From: Gammaproteobacteria bacterium
Lineage (GTDB): Bacteria > Pseudomonadota > Gammaproteobacteria > UBA4575
Length of the DNA: 64,000 bases
Assembly: GCA_011523795.1 (NCBI GenBank)
Contig: WTFY01000003.1
Span: 124,001-188,000, forward strand
Reading direction: 5' to 3'
Part shown: piece by piece, positions 20,116-30,889 of the stretch
Layout: each line of letters starts with the position of its first letter
How positions within the stretch are numbered: position 1 is the stretch's first letter
The notes under the pieces: model-generated
What the model saw: the letters and a program-made list of their open reading frames with translations, nothing else
Databases searched by the model: none
Told to the model about the DNA's origin: nothing
Made by a program: the position numbers and the translations under genes

Positions 20116-20469
20116 CTATTTTAATTTTTCTTTACAGGTATCTGTTACGGTTTTCCAACAGCAGTGATAAGTCCAGCCTGGACCGCCTGTATTTGATTCA
20201 TTGGCAAGAATTTGTTCATTCTTTTTAGGGTTAGCAGGCATTCCGCCATTACCTTCAAAGTTAAGTAGTTTGGCCTTGTCCAATACCGCGGACCTGCAAA
20301 GTGATATGCCTCGAACAACCCCCAAATATTGCTCTTCTCCTTCAGGCGTATAGAAATATACATTCATTTCTTCCTGTTCAAGCGTTCTTTGAAGGACTTC
20401 GCATCCGGTGATTGTAGTAGTTAACAGCAAAATTACTGCAGAATACTTTATTAAACTTGTTCGTAGCAT
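20116..20469 (-). CDS. Putative lipoprotein, 117 aa
   Basis: N-terminal signal peptide (AVILLLTTTITGC) ending in a lipobox with Cys at about residue 23, so lipidation and export are likely. The mature part has FYTPEGEEQYLGVVRGISLC and a C-terminal cluster with several cysteines (HCCWKTVTDTC). I do not recognise a family. It stands alone in a thinly coded area, and the downstream flank holds no clear terminator. Confidence 0.6.
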   Translation of the reverse strand: MLRTSLIKYSAVILLLTTTITGCEVLQRTLEQEEMNVYFYTPEGEEQYLGVVRGISLCRSAVLDKAKLLNFEGNGGMPANPKKNEQILANESNTGGPGWTYHCCWKTVTDTCKEKLK

Positions 20470-20782
20470 ACCAAACCCCTTGCCTTAGATTGTCATGTGT
20501 ACTGAGTATCTTACAGGTGGTAATTGCAAGAATTTGAAGGGCGAACCAATTTCAATATACATCTCACTTGAAGAAAAAAGCAAAAATCTGCTCTTTGATA
20601 GTCTTCGCCAAATTGAGCATGATTAAAATATATTTAATATCAAAAAATCATATCTTACAGTATTCGGAAGTGCATCAAAAATATCATAGTTTTATAAGAA
20701 TTTTAAATGAAATTTAAAACAGTTTTTATCAGGCATAAGTAAATTTTGTACTGAGGTTTCATTGGTTGGGGGGTATTTAAGC
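20470..20782. other. AT-rich divergent intergenic region
   Basis: About 313 bases, strongly AT-rich between 20620 and 20760. No gene was found. It probably holds promoters for the lipoprotein gene and the broken gene at 20783, but no single promoter can be fixed. Confidence 0.35.
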
Positions 20783-21065
20783 ATGTCAATCGACCGCTCA
20801 GAGATAAATTCAAAAATTTGTAAAGCATTTTTTAGTGAAGAGGAATTAAGTACGCCACTTGGTTTTTGCAAAAATTAGAGATGATGTGTGGAAGTTAATC
20901 CATAAACTGGAAGAGCGTGGCCATCAGGTATTTACGAAACAGTTTCCACCAGTATATTGCAAAATTGACAAGAATATTGACTGTACAGGCAGTGACTTTA
21001 ATGAGGCCGTTTGTAAGGCCGCATTAGCATTGATTGAACAATCAGAAGCCGAAGCCGATAAGTAG
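20783..21065 (+). pseudogene. Small gene interrupted by a single frameshift
   Basis: An ATG at 20783, preceded by a G-run, opens a frame that stops at 20876-20878. The other forward frame, open from about 20859 to TAG at 21065, continues sensibly with IRDDVWKLIHKLEERG and QFPPVYCKIDKN. Removing one T from the T5 run at 20863-20867 joins the two into one ~93-aa protein: SEEELSTPLG then FAKIRDDVWK. I do not recognise the family. It could be a true pseudogene, a phase-variable homopolymer, or a sequencing error. Confidence 0.5.
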
Positions 21066-22160
21066 CTTGGCAAAACTGCATTCATACGCTTGAGACGTCT
21101 CCACCACGCCACACGTCTCATCGTCATACTTCTTCATTACTACATGAGCTTCCATTAGGACCAGGTCTTCCGTGCTGACTTCGACTTTCAGTACCTTCAG
21201 GCATCCTCCGGCCACAGTCTAGAAAACCTGGTACATGAGTGTTAATTGCCGCCTTGGCATGCTTGTCCATACGGTTGATCAGATTTGACTCGTGACTGTT
21301 TGAACGCGCTACCATCTCCAATTCCTCGGCCATGACATTGGAAAAAGCATATTTCACAATGCCCGTTATCTTGTAGGCTGAGGATGTGTTAACAGTTATT
21401 CAGTCAGATTCGGCAATCCGACTGTGTTCTGTGGTTTTCCCGGTTGCATCCAGTATGACAAGTGAGGTATCAGGTCAAGTTGGAACTACTGAATAGAGAG
21501 TTGTTGTCCTTGGTGTAGCTGAATTCTGGTGTCAGTACTGTAGCCATTGAACTGGTCATTCTCAAGGCGTTGTGGATGAACTGCTAAATGGATTGAAAAT
21601 GCCATTATTCATTGAGTATCTAATAGACAAAAAATGATTTCAGAATCGGCAGATGTTTGCATTGGCCTTAGACAATTTTGCCAGGGAAAACTGCATAAGG
21701 AGCATGTACATGTCTATCCCGTCACGCAGGTGTGAATAAAGTTAGTAATGTAAACAATATCAGGCGTAAACAGAAAGTTTCACAGCATGTTGCTTTCAGC
21801 ATCGGGGCAATATTTTGCAGCATCACATAGGGTAAATTTCGGTATTAACCTTAATGTGTGTGTTGTTGTAATGCGGGACAGGATATCAATTGCAAGTGAA
21901 TCTAATTTGAACGTTTGTGTGTATCGGTTCGATTGCCACAGAAACTACAATTTAATTGATAAAAGCATAAGTAATAATGATGGGGACTGACCCAATAGTA
22001 ATGGAAAATATATCCATAATAGAATAGACTGTCCAAAACAGTGCTAGTCCAAATTGAATGTATCAACCAAGGGCAAGCACAGACTAAAAAGCTAATGAGT
22101 AGTTGCTAGCCGCAGCTAGCTAACTAGCAAAATGCCAACCATTGCACGGGAGGAGGCATT
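21066..22160. other. Long region without a supported gene
   Basis: About 1.1 kb. A minus-strand frame at 21124-21357 and a forward frame at 21787-21990 are open, but neither has a recognisable domain or good ribosome-binding site. The part after 21790 becomes AT-rich and probably carries the promoter of the symporter gene, whose strong site GGGAGGAGG is at 22148-22156. Confidence 0.4.
22102..22124. promoter_or_regulatory. Inverted repeat upstream of the symporter gene
   Basis: GTTGCTAGC and GCTAGCTAAC face each other across a CGCA loop, with one bulged base. It lies about 37 bp before the symporter ATG and just upstream of its ribosome-binding site. It could be an operator or an mRNA leader hairpin. 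There is no T-run, so a terminator is unlikely. Confidence 0.35.
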
Positions 22161-23654
22161 ATGGATAAGTCGGTCTTAGTTGCATCTGAGGGTTTGACTG
22201 CCGGTCTGGGATTTTCCTTGATGATTGGGTTTGGTCTGTTATTCCTCATACTCGCATTTATAATCAAACACGGCCTTATCAAATCGACGCATGATTTCAT
22301 CATATCAAACCGAAAGGTTGGTCTTGGCTTCGGGGTAGGAGCAGTCATCTCGGTTTGGACATGGGCCATGGCAGTTATGATGAGTTCTGCGATGACTTAT
22401 CAATGGGGGCTATCTGGACTTTTCTGGTTCGTAGTGCCAAATGGTTTCGCAATTATGGCTATGGTGCCGTTGGCCAGGATTCTGAGAAGAAAAATGCCAG
22501 AAGGCTACACTATCAGCCAATTTGCTCACACTAGATTCGGCGGGTCGAAAGCTGCATCTATAGTTGTCACAATTGCGATGATTTTCGGAATTCTTCTGGA
22601 AACTCTCATCAATATAAAAGGTACATCTGTTGTGATGTCAACAGTGTTCCCCATAGATTGGCAAACAGTTGTGATCTTGACGGTAGTAGTTGTTATGACC
22701 TATGTCTTCTTTGGAGGGTTATGGACTAGTGTGATGACAGGGACTTTCAATACTTGGATGATTACTACACCCGCAGCTATTGTAGTTGTAGCTGTCTATG
22801 CCCATATAAGTGGTGGTGCAACTGCTGTATTTGAAGCTGTAAGAGCTGCAGACCCCACCAATTTATCAGTATTTGAAGCTGATGCAGCAGCTGGCTTTGG
22901 GATTACTCTGGCATTCGGCTTGCTTGCAGCAGTCGTGGCAGATCAGACCTTTTGGCAGAAAGTGTGGGCCGTACGTAAAGAACAAGTTACAAGGACATTC
23001 TTGTGGGGCGGAGCGCTCTTCTATCCGATCCCAATATGTTTGGGTATGCTAGGGCTTGCTGGCCTAGCATTCGGCCTGACTCCTGAAGAGCTGGGAGGAG
23101 ATATAGTTGCAGTTGGACCGTATATGGTGTCGCATATTGGTTTGCCCCTGATTCTAATTCTGACCTATGTACTGGTGATATTAGCAGCGTGCTATTCGAC
23201 AATTGATGGAGCAGCGTCTGCATTGTCTTCCATTATTGCGATAGATATCGTTAAACGGTTTGCAACAGGCACGCGTGAGAAAACCTTGTTCTATATCACA
23301 AGATTCGGAATGATCTTGGGTGGTGTGATCTCGGGTATTATTGTGCTATCAGGAGTTGATTTCACTACGCTGGTTCTAACAACCTATGCATTGAAAACAT
23401 CAATACTCTTGCCACTAATACTTGCGATTGTTTGGAGAAGAACCAATACCGCTGGTTTTGTTCTAGGAATAGTTTTAGCGATTGTGATTGGTATGCCGCT
23501 TCGACATTTGTATGGAGAGATGGTAGGTACATTTTCAATATTGGCTATCAGTGCAGGAATCGTAGTGATTGCAGGATTGTTTAGCCGAGAAGAATTTGAT
23601 ATGGACAAGTTGCTAGAAGCTCACAAAGATGAACTCGCACATAAGGCAACATGA
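22161..23654 (+). CDS. Sodium:solute symporter (SSS family, Dur3-like)
   Basis: 497-aa inner-membrane transporter with about 13 hydrophobic helices. The N-terminal part (FIISNRKVGLGFGVGAVISVWTW, TYQWGLSGLFWFVVPNGFAI, RRKMPEGYTISQFAHTRFGG) follows the SSS pattern and most resembles the Dur3 urea/polyamine branch. Later segments include ADQTFWQKVWAVRKEQ and ACYSTIDGAASALSSI, also typical of that branch. The start has a strong site GGGAGGAGG five bases upstream. A small three-helix gene follows 43 bp downstream and two flavin monooxygenases come next, suggesting uptake of an organic nitrogen or sulfur compound (inference). Confidence 0.88.
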   Translation: MDKSVLVASEGLTAGLGFSLMIGFGLLFLILAFIIKHGLIKSTHDFIISNRKVGLGFGVGAVISVWTWAMAVMMSSAMTYQWGLSGLFWFVVPNGFAIMAMVPLARILRRKMPEGYTISQFAHTRFGGSKAASIVVTIAMIFGILLETLINIKGTSVVMSTVFPIDWQTVVILTVVVVMTYVFFGGLWTSVMTGTFNTWMITTPAAIVVVAVYAHISGGATAVFEAVRAADPTNLSVFEADAAAGFGITLAFGLLAAVVADQTFWQKVWAVRKEQVTRTFLWGGALFYPIPICLGMLGLAGLAFGLTPEELGGDIVAVGPYMVSHIGLPLILILTYVLVILAACYSTIDGAASALSSIIAIDIVKRFATGTREKTLFYITRFGMILGGVISGIIVLSGVDFTTLVLTTYALKTSILLPLILAIVWRRTNTAGFVLGIVLAIVIGMPLRHLYGEMVGTFSILAISAGIVVIAGLFSREEFDMDKLLEAHKDELAHKAT

Positions 23655-23697
23655 TTTTTCAACTATATTCGCTTGGAAATCAAATGAGAGGTGAACT

Positions 23698-24009
23698 ATG
23701 TCAGGGTTATTTATATTTTTCTTAATAATTGGAGCGGTTGCTACAATCCTATATGCAGCGGGATACGCTACGGGAATTAAGCAATCTTTTACTGACGTTG
23801 AAGAAGACAAGGAAATCACGGAGTATAAGGACAGTGCTTACACAGTGACTATTGCGCTCGCAGTTATCGCATCGGCAGTGATTATCGCTTTGGTAGGCGT
23901 CAACCCGATATTCGTCTACGCAGGGCCGATTTTGGCGGTTGTGACAACCTTTATGGTAGGTTTTGCGTTCTTTTATGAGCGCATGATGCGAGCATCGGGA
24001 AATTACTAA
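23698..24009 (+). CDS. Small three-helix membrane protein next to the symporter
   Basis: 103 aa with three hydrophobic segments (residues ~3-25, ~45-68 and ~71-94). An acidic loop DVEEDKEITEYKD separates the first two. A good site GAGAGGTG precedes the ATG. It lies between the symporter gene and a strong terminator at 24036-24071, so the pair forms a closed transcription unit. I do not recognise the family; a symporter accessory subunit is an inference from position. Confidence 0.7.
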   Translation: MSGLFIFFLIIGAVATILYAAGYATGIKQSFTDVEEDKEITEYKDSAYTVTIALAVIASAVIIALVGVNPIFVYAGPILAVVTTFMVGFAFFYERMMRASGNY

Positions 24010-24035
24010 ACCTTCTACTTCTATTTTTCTTATTA

Positions 24036-24071
24036 GGGGCACACAGGTAAACCTGCTTGTGTGCCCCTTTA
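24036..24071 (+). terminator. Rho-independent terminator after the symporter pair
   Basis: GGGGCACACA and TGTGTGCCCC form a 10-bp stem around a 12-base loop, followed directly by TTTAATTTT. It closes the symporter unit 26 bp after the small membrane gene. Confidence 0.85.
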
Positions 24072-24104
24072 ATTTTAAGATTCATTTTTACTTTTGTGAC
24101 TGGC

Positions 24105-24144
24105 AGTGAGTATCAAAGCATGAAAGTGAGTATCAAAGCATGAA
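24105..24144 (+). repeat. 20-bp perfect tandem duplication spanning a start codon
   Basis: The unit AGTGAGTATCAAAGCATGAA occurs twice head to tail, with no mismatch. Each copy carries an ATG. The first ATG (24120) opens a seven-codon frame MKVSIKA whose TGA (24141-24143) overlaps the second ATG (24140), the real start of the monooxygenase. The result is an ATGA-coupled mini-frame. Confidence 0.9.
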
Positions 24145-25168
24145 AGTAGGTATTTGGGCGCCTGTGTACGGGGGGTGGTTACGTATAAAAAATCACCAAT
24201 ACCGACCATCTTTTGCAGTTTGTAATGAAATTGCTAGTCGTGCTGAAACTAACTGTTATGACTACATCTATGTCTCTGAAAATTACTTGAATGTTGTTTA
24301 CGGGCCAAGTCAGGAAGTTGCTGATGCATGGGCATATGCTGCAGCCCTTGCAGCAAATACTTCAAAGATAAGCATTGTGGTTGCCACAAAACCAGGATTT
24401 CACTCCCCATTACCTTTGGCCAGGATGGCGCACGGCATTAACCATATAAGTAATAATAGGCTGTCTATCAACATAGTCTGTGGATGGTGGAAGAAGGAAT
24501 TTACTCAATGTGGAGTTAAGTATTTGGATCATCAGGGGCGCTACCAGCGTGCAACAGAATTCACACAGTGCCTCAAGCAGTTATGGACCGGAGAAAACAC
24601 TTCTTTTAGCGGAAAATATTTCTTACTGCAGGATGCCCTGATAGCAATGGAAGACTTAGAAGAGGGTAGAATTCCAATATGGATCAGTGGTCAATCGACA
24701 GATGCTCAAAGGCTTGTGGCCCAATACGGAGATGTATTTTTTATTGATAGCATGCCTGATGAGAAGTTAGAACAAACCATTCAGCAAATAAGAGATCTAG
24801 AAAGCAAATATAGAAACAAAGTCAAGATTGCAATGAGTGTATTTGTTATCTTGGATAAGACAAAAGAACAGGCCGAGCGCAGGTACATGAAAATACTTTC
24901 TGGTAGACAGCAGGACTTAATAGAAAACTTTAAACGAATTATGGCCGAGTCAGGAGCTACGATGTGGAAGGGGCTGACTGATGAGCAAATGGTTGATTCA
25001 AATTGCGGATTTGATGCAAGCCTGATTGGGGACCGTGCCACTATATTGAATCGTTTAAAGTTGCTGCAGGGCTATGGAGTAGACATTTTATTATGTCAGT
25101 TTGAAAACATGCTGGATGATACTGAAAAATTTGGTAAAACAGTTTTGCCTCAATTACGTGCAGCATAA
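24140..25168 (+). CDS. LLM-class flavin-dependent monooxygenase (SsuD/RutA-like)
   Basis: 342-aa TIM-barrel enzyme of the bacterial luciferase-like superfamily, which uses FMNH2 and O2. The N-terminus KVGIWAPVYGGWL and the segment WISGQSTDAQRLVAQYGDVFF resemble pyrimidine monooxygenase RutA. KISIVVATKPGFHSP, NRLSINIVCGWW and DHQGRYQRATEFTQ resemble alkanesulfonate monooxygenase SsuD. It cannot be placed in either subfamily by eye. No flavin reductase gene is adjacent. Start chosen at 24140; it sits in the second copy of a tandem repeat. A second LLM enzyme follows 99 bp downstream. Confidence 0.85.
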   Translation: MKVGIWAPVYGGWLRIKNHQYRPSFAVCNEIASRAETNCYDYIYVSENYLNVVYGPSQEVADAWAYAAALAANTSKISIVVATKPGFHSPLPLARMAHGINHISNNRLSINIVCGWWKKEFTQCGVKYLDHQGRYQRATEFTQCLKQLWTGENTSFSGKYFLLQDALIAMEDLEEGRIPIWISGQSTDAQRLVAQYGDVFFIDSMPDEKLEQTIQQIRDLESKYRNKVKIAMSVFVILDKTKEQAERRYMKILSGRQQDLIENFKRIMAESGATMWKGLTDEQMVDSNCGFDASLIGDRATILNRLKLLQGYGVDILLCQFENMLDDTEKFGKTVLPQLRAA

Positions 25169-25267
25169 AAAGTAGCAACTGACAATGCCTATAAAGTATA
25201 AGCACAAGGTTTCAAAAGTTTTTTGATTCAAGTGCACACTAAACTTTAGGAGAGGAGAAGCTAAATC

Positions 25268-26755
25268 ATGACCACAAAAAGTAAGACGAAAACAAAGCAA
25301 AAAAATAATAAATGGACAATGAAAAACTTACCTCAGGGAGAAGACGCAAAGAAAGTTGCACGTGAATTTGCCAGAGAACTACTTGATATCCAAAAAGCTA
25401 ATCCAGTTGTAACACCTAAATCGCATAAGAAGAAAAAAAGGAAGCAAGCACACCTGCTAGGTTTTATCCAACACGGATTAAATAGTCATGCAACTGGCAT
25501 GTGGCGAAACCATCGAGACAAGCGTGGATGGAAGTTTTCTGAGCCTGAGTACTGGGTTCATATGGCAAGAACCATGGAGCGCGGTAAGTTTGATGCGATG
25601 TTTATCGCGGATGAGCTAGCACCATACAATAATTATAAGCAAAGCTCTGATGACACTGTACGCTATGCTGTGCAGTGCCCAGTTCATGAGCCGGCAACTA
25701 TCGTGCCAATTATAGGTCATGCAACCACGCACCTGGGCGTTGGAGTAACTTTGTCAACTGCATTTGTGCACCCCTATGCGATGTGCCGTCATTTATCAAG
25801 TTTAGACCACCTTACCAAAGGGCGAGTTGCCTGGAATATAGTAAGTTCGTATTCCAAGAGTGAATGGGACGCCTATGGAGCAGAAATGTCTGACCGTTCT
25901 TTAAGGTATGAAAGAATGGAAGAGTATATGGATCTCTGCTATCAGCTTTGGGATTCTTGGGAGGAAGATTCTATCGTTGCTGATCGTGCATCTGGGGTAT
26001 TTGCAGATCCTGAAAAAGTTCGTGAAATCAATTTCGATGGACGCTTTTTCAAATGTAGAGGTAGGCATTTTTGCTATCGGTCTCCACAAGTGTCTCCAGT
26101 TTTATGGCAAGCTGGCTCTTCTCCTCGCGGTAGGGACTTTGCTGCAAAACATGCAGAAGCGATCTTCGCAGTCCACCCAAATGTAGAGCGCATGGCTGAA
26201 TATAGGGATGACTTGAATGAGCGCTGCTATACAAAATTCAATCGCGAGCCTAATAGTGTGAAACGAATCTATGGATTGCAGACGATAGTTGCTCCAACGC
26301 GTGCTGAGGCTGAAGAAAAATATGAGAGGATAATGTCTCACATTCCATTGGAGGGAGCGCTTGCTTGGATTTCAGGACATTTTGGGCCGGATTTTTCGAC
26401 CTATGAGTTAGATGATGTTGTACAAAACATTGAAATTCCGGGTATTCAAGGTTTATTTGAGTCCATCATTTATGCCAAGGGAGGAGGGCCTGTCACCGTA
26501 AAAGAAGCAGCCTTGATCTATGCACAGGGCATGGGAATGCCACGTGCTATCGGAAGTCCTGCAGATGTTGTCGATCAGATGGAGGTGTTCATGGATGCAG
26601 GGGCAGATGGGTTTATGCTTGTTGCTACATACACTCCTGGTTGCTTTGAAGATTTTGCTGATTTGATTACACCTGAAATGCAGAGAAGAGGCTTATTGCG
26701 GACCGAGTATCGAGGTAAAACATTAAGGGAGAACCTGCTTGATGACGGAGATTAA
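25268..26755 (+). CDS. LLM flavin monooxygenase, NtaA/SnaA/DszA type, with Lys-rich N-terminal tail
   Basis: 495-aa member of the nitrilotriacetate/desulfurization/dimethylsulfide monooxygenase branch. Core motifs: WVHMARTMERGKFDAMFIAD, HLGVGVTLSTAFVHPYAMCRHLSSLDHLTKGRVAWNIVSS-type block, RYERMEEYMDLCYQLWDSWEEDS, FFKCRGRHFCYRSPQVSPVLWQAGSSPRGRDFAAKHAEAIF-type block and GFMLVATYTPGCFEDFADLI. The first ~62 residues are extra: lysine clusters KTKTKQKNNK and KSHKKKKRKQ flank a short helix. A strong site AGGAGAGGAG precedes the ATG. It likely oxidises a small sulfur- or nitrogen-containing organic compound; the flavin reductase must be encoded elsewhere. Confidence 0.87.
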   Translation: MTTKSKTKTKQKNNKWTMKNLPQGEDAKKVAREFARELLDIQKANPVVTPKSHKKKKRKQAHLLGFIQHGLNSHATGMWRNHRDKRGWKFSEPEYWVHMARTMERGKFDAMFIADELAPYNNYKQSSDDTVRYAVQCPVHEPATIVPIIGHATTHLGVGVTLSTAFVHPYAMCRHLSSLDHLTKGRVAWNIVSSYSKSEWDAYGAEMSDRSLRYERMEEYMDLCYQLWDSWEEDSIVADRASGVFADPEKVREINFDGRFFKCRGRHFCYRSPQVSPVLWQAGSSPRGRDFAAKHAEAIFAVHPNVERMAEYRDDLNERCYTKFNREPNSVKRIYGLQTIVAPTRAEAEEKYERIMSHIPLEGALAWISGHFGPDFSTYELDDVVQNIEIPGIQGLFESIIYAKGGGPVTVKEAALIYAQGMGMPRAIGSPADVVDQMEVFMDAGADGFMLVATYTPGCFEDFADLITPEMQRRGLLRTEYRGKTLRENLLDDGD

Positions 26756-26840: not shown

Positions 26841-27170
26841 GTGGTGCAGGTTACTAGCACGCTACAAACTGCCTTTAAACGAATGAAGCTTAGCTTTGTC
26901 TTGCTCATGTTTATGTTTGTAGCGATTTACATCTATGCTGATAGATACCAGTTTACTGGTGAACATAACAGCTGGCTCGCTGTAATCATCAGCGTTAGTA
27001 TTGCCCTTAGTCTTATTTATTTATTTTATATGGTTTACCTCGTAAACCTCCTTAACAAAAATCCATTACCTTGGGTGATTCTGACTGTTGCCTTTGGGCC
27101 GCTAGGATTACTAATTTCGTATATCATAATTTCTGCAAGTGTTATGAAGATTGAGAAAGAAAGTAGCTAG
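26841..27170 (+). CDS. Small membrane protein, 109 aa
   Basis: Three hydrophobic helices with a short charged tail (KIEKESS). The open frame begins at a GTG pair (26841/26844); an ATG at 26883 (MKLSFVLLMF) is an equally possible start. I do not recognise a family. It lies 85 bp after the second monooxygenase on the same strand, so it may be in the same transcript. Confidence 0.5.
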   Translation: MVQVTSTLQTAFKRMKLSFVLLMFMFVAIYIYADRYQFTGEHNSWLAVIISVSIALSLIYLFYMVYLVNLLNKNPLPWVILTVAFGPLGLLISYIIISASVMKIEKESS

Positions 27171-27194: not shown

Positions 27195-27650
27195 TTATTT
27201 GAAACTAGAATAATCTAGAATGCCTACTTGGGCGATTAGTTTCCATTGCTTCATTCTTACTGTTGTATAAATCTTGCAAGTCCGGCCAACCCAGTGCAAT
27301 TCGTCACCTGTTCTGGACTCCCATAAAGTATCAACATCCACTACTGCAAATGCACCGTCTTCTTCACTTGAAATCACAATGTTTTCTATAGTGCGGGAAT
27401 TATGTACCAAATTATATTTTTCAAAAAATTTTTCGAAATACTTGTACCAGCGCTGGTAATTGAATTTTCCCCAAGGTAATACCCACTCTATCGGGTCATG
27501 AGCATTTGCGTTTGGCGGCCAAGGCCAAACCATGTCAGGATGGACAATGTTCAAGAAGAGATCAATATCTTGAGTGTCAAATGCGCGCGTTTCTCTGTTT
27601 ACAATTTCTGTAACTTCTTTCCTAGCATCCATGGTTTGAGTGTTAGGCAT
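27195..27650 (-). CDS. NTF2/SnoaL-like protein, 151 aa
   Basis: Soluble cone-shaped NTF2-fold protein, to judge from the pattern: an N-terminal helix EVTEIVNRETRAFDTQDIDLFLNIVHPDMVWPW, a central helix WYKYFEKFFEKYN, and strands FAVVDVDTLWES and TCKIYTTVRMKQWKLIAQVGILD. Such proteins include isomerases, hydratases and non-enzymatic binding domains, so the activity cannot be stated. It is convergent with the membrane gene at 26841. A long inverted repeat sits 58 bp upstream of its start. Confidence 0.65.
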   Translation of the reverse strand: MPNTQTMDARKEVTEIVNRETRAFDTQDIDLFLNIVHPDMVWPWPPNANAHDPIEWVLPWGKFNYQRWYKYFEKFFEKYNLVHNSRTIENIVISSEEDGAFAVVDVDTLWESRTGDELHWVGRTCKIYTTVRMKQWKLIAQVGILDYSSFK

Positions 27651-30625: not shown

Positions 30626-30889
30626 ATGCCAGTGTATGCAGTTCAAAGAAGACTGCCTGGGATTACGATGGATAACTTGGCGAATGCTCAGAAAGCAGCT
30701 ATTGATACCAGTAATAAAATTGCTGCAGAAGGCACACCTGTTAAGTATATTCGAAGCAATTTCTATCCAGGAGATTCGCGATGTACGTGTTTGTTTGAGG
30801 CAGACTGTGCGGAGACAGTTGAAAAAGTGAATAAAGAAGCTTCGCTTCCATTCGATAAAGTGGAAGAAGTAATGGATTTAAATCCATAG
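30626..30889 (+). CDS. DUF4242 domain-containing protein
   Basis: 87-aa ferredoxin-like-fold protein of the DUF4242 family (PF14026), some members of which bind nickel. Seen: MPVYAVQRRLPGITMDNLANAQKAA at the start, VKYIRSNFYPGDSRCTCLFEAD in the middle and VEKVNKEASLPFDKVEEV at the end. This three-part layout is the family signature. It has a strong site GGAGGAGG and two possible leader hairpins. Function is not known. Confidence 0.78.
   Translation: MPVYAVQRRLPGITMDNLANAQKAAIDTSNKIAAEGTPVKYIRSNFYPGDSRCTCLFEADCAETVEKVNKEASLPFDKVEEVMDLNP

Follow-up and report, generated by a model that had tools for sequence, protein, structure and literature searches.

A probable scavenging operon that joins a DUR3-like symporter to LLM-family flavin monooxygenases

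Gene sets that combine a transporter with a two-component monooxygenase are a known kind, and the module described here adds to that kind. In the ssuEADCB alkanesulfonate operon, a transporter, an LLM monooxygenase and an FMN reductase are clustered; however, the transporter there is of the ABC type whereas the module has an SSS symporter, and the sulfonate-binding residues of SsuD are not kept in the first monooxygenase of the module, LLM1. The sfn/msu dimethylsulfone genes of pseudomonads (SfnG, MsuC, MsuD and MsuE) also encode FMNH2-dependent monooxygenases with a separate reductase, and SfnG is the nearest characterized relative of LLM1 in both sequence and structure. By contrast with that system, LLM1 scores far under the SfnG cut-off and falls outside the SfnG clade, and the module has neither MsuC nor MsuD but carries a symporter, a small protein and a second monooxygenase, LLM2. 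RutA, from the rut pyrimidine operon (RutA, RutF), is likewise related to LLM1, and Rhizobiales clusters have a reductase of the RutF/FerA/HpaC type, but the module contains no further rut genes and LLM1 is far below the RutA cut-off. LLM2 passes the model of the NtaA/DmoA family (LadA, DmoA, DszA/BdsA, HcbA1, CmoJ) but forms a separate, fully supported clade. The DUR3 urea symporters are the sole solved SSS transporters matched by the symporter of the module; they differ in length (~700–770 aa, against 497 aa here), and the module symporter, unlike them, is accompanied by a conserved three-helix partner gene and by oxygenases. Two published accounts bear on the chemistry considered below: in Acinetobacter, dimethyl sulfide is taken to sulfite by a chain of two-component monooxygenases, with one reductase feeding all of them (PMC13352529), and dimethylsulfone transporters are described as uncharacterized in the MsuD paper (PMC8234197).

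Gene content, arrangement and spread of the module

The window, a stretch of 64,000 nucleotides, comes from a gammaproteobacterial genome of 2.07 Mb in 22 contigs. The four open reading frames that the initial annotation had placed across 22161–26755 are all present there and belong to the families it named (Table 1). Between the window and a sister genome, codon position 3 differs in ~50% of codons and position 2 in 1–12%, indicating that all four genes are under purifying selection.

Table 1. Features of the module in the window
Feature	Coordinates	Strand	Evidence
SSS-family symporter, 497 aa, DUR3-like, module core	22161..23654	+	Pfam SSF 5e-14
103-aa three-hydrophobic-helix protein, putative symporter accessory subunit	23698..24009	+	three hydrophobic segments
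Intrinsic-terminator-like hairpin, small gene/LLM1 gap	24035..24068	+	15-bp stem, T-rich tail
LLM1, FMNH2-dependent monooxygenase, SfnG/SsuD/RutA group, 342 aa, variable	24140..25168	+	Bac_luciferase 2.7e-49
LLM2, NtaA/DmoA-family FMN-dependent monooxygenase, 495 aa, core enzyme	25268..26755	+	Bac_luciferase 2.3e-40

LLM2 is present at an identity of at least 86% in 3 of 19 genomes of the window's own family, and in all three the four genes are present and their order is identical; a close relative with the same cluster is the gammaproteobacterial MAG APA_bin_104. Scanning genome contigs with LLM2 recovered five further close relatives (65–75%), in Hansschlegelia, Bradyrhizobium (three) and a Verrucomicrobiota MAG, and the symporter adjoins LLM2 in each of these five non-sister genomes. 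A search with the symporter alone recovered ten further genomes, six from the 297 searched in the Bradyrhizobium family and four from the 397 searched in the Hansschlegelia order; LLM2 adjoins the symporter in 10/10. In samples of the window's class (369), its phylum (398) and the phylum of the Verrucomicrobiota MAG (289), the only matches were the starting genomes. The symporter is 98% identical in G002 and 90% in G014, and 49–75% identical in the Rhizobiales and the Verrucomicrobiota MAG, where LLM2 always adjoins it. Co-occurrence of the symporter, 103-aa gene and enzymes in other genomes, as expected of the module that the initial annotation had proposed, was found in both search directions, with LLM1 present in 15 of 19 clusters.

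Across the 19 genomes (Gammaproteobacteria, Rhizobiales and one Verrucomicrobiota MAG), the symporter, small gene and LLM2 are clustered without exception, the small gene always lying behind the symporter (identities of 23–89%), and a LysR regulator is found in 12/19. The search profiles behind these counts were built partly from the same clusters, but plain BLAST shows most of the linkage. Gene order is not fixed: LLM1 comes first in Bradyrhizobium and third in Hansschlegelia. Such variation speaks for selection that keeps the genes together and against a frozen neighborhood. The core therefore consists of the symporter, small gene and LLM2, and LLM1 is the most variable, dispensable part; the uptake-and-oxidation module stands as a co-inherited unit, but the two unlike LLM enzymes do not stand as its core.

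The module is rare, centered on Rhizobiales and patchy elsewhere, and horizontal transfer most likely accounts for its spread. One Pararhizobium qamdonense plasmid bears the symporter, the small gene and two tandem copies of LLM2; among plasmid records this was the one protein-level case, with no close DNA match to the module. The Verrucomicrobiota copy sits on an 8.3-kb MAG contig for which misbinning is not indicated. We rejected contamination as its source, since its G+C content of 0.52 fits its own contig and comparison with the closest copy, in G174, gave no near match at the DNA level.

The terminator reported by the initial annotation behind the 103-aa gene was confirmed as a terminator-like hairpin, within a gap of 130 bp that separates the small gene from LLM1. 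No such hairpin was seen in the equivalent gap of two related genomes (L026 and L027), and it is therefore not part of a conserved design. Gene-to-gene gaps are between -4 and 74 bases throughout in two Rhizobiales clusters, and LLM1 and LLM2 overlap by 4 bp in G622.

Upstream of the symporter lie 1.7 kb free of long open reading frames (20470–22160), of which the last 38 bases alone resemble the sister genome. A riboswitch scan found none in the window, and 20470–22160 matched no Rfam family. We rejected riboswitch control of the symporter, along the lines of the thiamin idea for the DUR31 type (PMC5997356), since the window has no riboswitch and, across the 12 related loci scanned, the only riboswitches were of the cobalamin type and lay away from the module. 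Genes for a 109-aa membrane protein (26841–27170), a SnoaL-like protein (27195–27650) and a 117-aa lipoprotein-like protein (20116–20469) lie close to the module in each of the three family members, with their order and orientation shuffled, and are not near it in Rhizobiales. A SCO4226-like gene (PF14026) is found in the window (30626–30889) and at L031 (1601–1861), L032 (7124–7384) and L033 (9061–9321); it lies no more than ~4 kb from the module in the window, G002 and G014, and no more than ~230 bp behind a DmoA-like LLM gene in three same-family relatives. A link between this small protein and LLM loci is possible.

Relationships of the transporter pair and the monooxygenases

The symporter scored 52.4 bits against Pfam SSF (PF00474; gathering score 22.8), which places it in the SSS family. 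When it was compared by sequence with solved SSS transporters, DUR3 chains were the sole PDB matches at E < 0.001 (best 2.2e-21); the label "Dur3-like" in the initial annotation is apt in that DUR3 is the only solved family matched. The three-helix protein may be an accessory subunit of the symporter. Twelve small proteins from the clusters gave no convincing Pfam family, and we therefore rejected a known small partner of SSS transporters as its identity. The small gene of G014 (L027, 7975–8283) has an in-frame TAA near its start, with the remainder of the cluster intact; possible readings are a damaged copy, a sequencing error or an internal restart.

LLM1 passes no NCBIfam family model. Its best score, far under the cut-off, is with SfnG (TIGR04021; 218.7 bits, cut-off 382.95), followed by SsuD (128 bits) and RutA (TIGR03612; 127.2 bits, cut-off 498.3). 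Consistent with these scores, a predicted model of LLM1 (mean pLDDT 76) is nearest to SfnG structures, including the dimethylsulfone complex (Z 35.0, rmsd 2.8, 318 aligned residues), and matches RutA and SsuD at Z ~32. The initial description of LLM1 as SsuD/RutA-like thus holds insofar as it is related to both, but its closest relative is SfnG. In a tree with few references, LLM1 sequences fall in three groups, all outside SfnG, SsuD and RutA; the SfnG rows form a 100/99 clade without LLM1, and the branches of RutA and two outgroup rows are long. We also compared the sites that bind sulfonate in SsuD (numbered as in E. coli SsuD without Met1). R226, H228 and R297 are replaced by S, F and N in the LLM1 of the window, and all twelve LLM1 sequences have S/N, F/Y/L and N there, the SfnG residues being N, F and N, as read from a multiple alignment at ~25% identity. 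Because the three SsuD residues are missing in all twelve sequences, an alkanesulfonate is an unlikely substrate for LLM1; these positions would fit an uncharged one.

LLM2 scored 464.5 bits against the NtaA/DmoA family model TIGR03860 (cut-off 279.7), so the affiliation first proposed for it is right at the family level. It has an N-terminal extension of ~55 residues that the alphaproteobacterial orthologs lack. In a tree that left out NtaA, EmoA and RcaE, 17 LLM2 orthologs form a clade with 100/100 support and a stem of 0.96, and LadA, DmoA, DszA/BdsA, HcbA1 and CmoJ all lie outside it. As the idea of a new module supposed, both LLM1 and LLM2 are outside the well-known reference clades included in the trees. 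LadA is the best PDB sequence match of LLM2, and the predicted LLM2 model (mean pLDDT 77) matches BdsA, RcaE, HcbA1, CmoJ, LadA and DmoA about equally (Z 36.6–38.6).

Several Bacilli loci (L042, L044, L045 and L048–L054; Salinicoccus, Oceanobacillus and others) have an LLM gene ~43% identical to LLM2 with an SSS symporter directly behind it. This symporter is ~22% identical to that of the window, and on that ground we rejected these loci as members of the module and treated them as a different system. In them an LLM monooxygenase and an SSS symporter have been brought together a second time, apparently independently.

Supply of reduced flavin

A flavin reductase is encoded in 12 of 19 orthologous clusters and is missing from the window and six others. 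The remark in the initial annotation that the cluster has no flavin reductase is accordingly correct for the window and incorrect for the system, the absence being a trait of the window's lineage. The cluster reductases belong to PF01613 (RutF/FerA/HpaC type) or PF03358 (MsuE-like), and in G655 (L100) ribB lies behind the reductase in the cluster, which fits a high demand for flavin. The window's genome encodes, on another contig, a PF03358 (MsuE-like) reductase beside SfnG and a PF01613 (HpaC/FerA-type) reductase a few kb from it; these could feed electrons to the enzymes of the window.

LLM genes occupy three loci in the window's genome, and the type of transporter differs from one locus to the next. 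At one (L028, contig C17), SfnG and the MsuE-like reductase are near a Peripla_BP_6 binding protein and ribBA; at another (L029, contig C18), a third LLM of the NtaA/DmoA family lies beside a MetX-like hydrolase and a branched-chain-type ABC transporter.

Proposed function and competing explanations

We consider it probable that the four genes make up an operon, spread horizontally and apparently undescribed, that scavenges one small organic compound through symporter uptake and oxygenation by LLM2 and LLM1. The DUR3-like symporter and the three-helix protein would import a small, uncharged polar compound by means of an ion gradient; LLM2, followed by LLM1 where present, would oxygenate and split the compound, and the FMNH2 would come from a reductase that is operon-encoded in most relatives and would be supplied from elsewhere in the window's genome. 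Family knowledge and gene linkage suggest these roles in import and FMNH2-dependent oxygenation. A DUR3-like carrier, together with an LLM1 that lacks the Arg/His/Arg of SsuD and has SfnG-like residues, points to a small uncharged substrate. The clusters share no other dedicated enzyme, so the products probably pass straight into general metabolism, for instance as sulfite or methanesulfinate plus an aldehyde, or as ammonium plus a simple acid. Against this explanation, SfnG and an MsuE-like reductase are already encoded elsewhere in the window's genome (L028), which would make another pathway for one and the same compound redundant, and in the window the terminator-like hairpin lies between the transporter genes and the two enzyme genes.

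Hints from flanking genes are mixed, with single loci pointing both ways, and this too weighs against the proposed function. In G174 (L097), genes for an SsuA-like binding protein and for an SsuD-like enzyme precede the module, which we counted as a sulfur hint, and urea-type ABC transporter genes are near it as well; beta-alanine catabolism genes are near the module at L100, and carboxyltransferase and deaminase genes at L099. No flanking gene other than LysR and the flavin reductase recurs across clusters, and we therefore rejected shared flanking genes as a guide to the substrate. Our first guess, held at rather less than an even chance, is an organosulfur compound of the sulfone or sulfoxide type; an organonitrogen compound is a more tentative one, a sulfone-type compound seeming somewhat likelier, and other kinds of compound take up the remaining probability.

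If the compound contains nitrogen, the operon would import an amide, ureide, pyrimidine-like compound or N-heterocycle and open it in the manner of RutA, releasing ammonium. This is possible but clearly less probable than scavenging as such: urea is the cargo of DUR3 transporters, RutA is among the relatives of LLM1 (127 bits; Z 32), and beta-alanine, deaminase and urea-ABC genes lie beside single clusters, but LLM1 reaches 127 of the 498 bits of the RutA cut-off, lies outside RutA in the tree and is closer to SfnG, and the clusters share neither rut nor urease genes. A doubtful but more specific proposal is that the DUR3-like symporter and its partner are a dedicated importer for a small neutral organosulfur compound (e.g. 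dimethylsulfone), with LLM2 and LLM1 as an undescribed cleavage route. It is improbable that the operon serves to attack an alkane or organic acid for carbon and energy, with LLM2 acting like LadA, its top PDB sequence match; the LLM2 clade is separate, on a long stem, and outside LadA, its fold is about as close to BdsA, RcaE, HcbA1, CmoJ and DmoA as to LadA, the clusters share no downstream genes for carbon degradation, and alkanes require no symporter. Most improbable is that two independent gene pairs are mere neighbors in the window's genome, as the hairpin and the 130-bp gap between the small gene and LLM1 might suggest. That explanation is already contradicted by linkage: the genes are clustered in 19/19 genomes, in differing orders and across classes, and LLM1 and LLM2 overlap in G622.

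We found no description of the gene set in open-licence full texts, in agreement with the initial annotation, which had called the module possibly undescribed. The scavenging operon that we favor would add an apparently undescribed, horizontally spread system comprising two enzyme clades of no known substrate and a type of transporter that had not been connected with such enzymes before. If the organosulfur-importer proposal is true, it would fill the dimethylsulfone transport step, which is described as lacking a characterized transporter (PMC8234197). Cultured carriers (Hansschlegelia beijingensis, Bradyrhizobium aeschynomenes and Pararhizobium qamdonense) make the question of the substrate testable, and an answer would name the function of two groups of genes whose sole labels at present are "LLM class flavin-dependent oxidoreductase" and "sodium:solute symporter".
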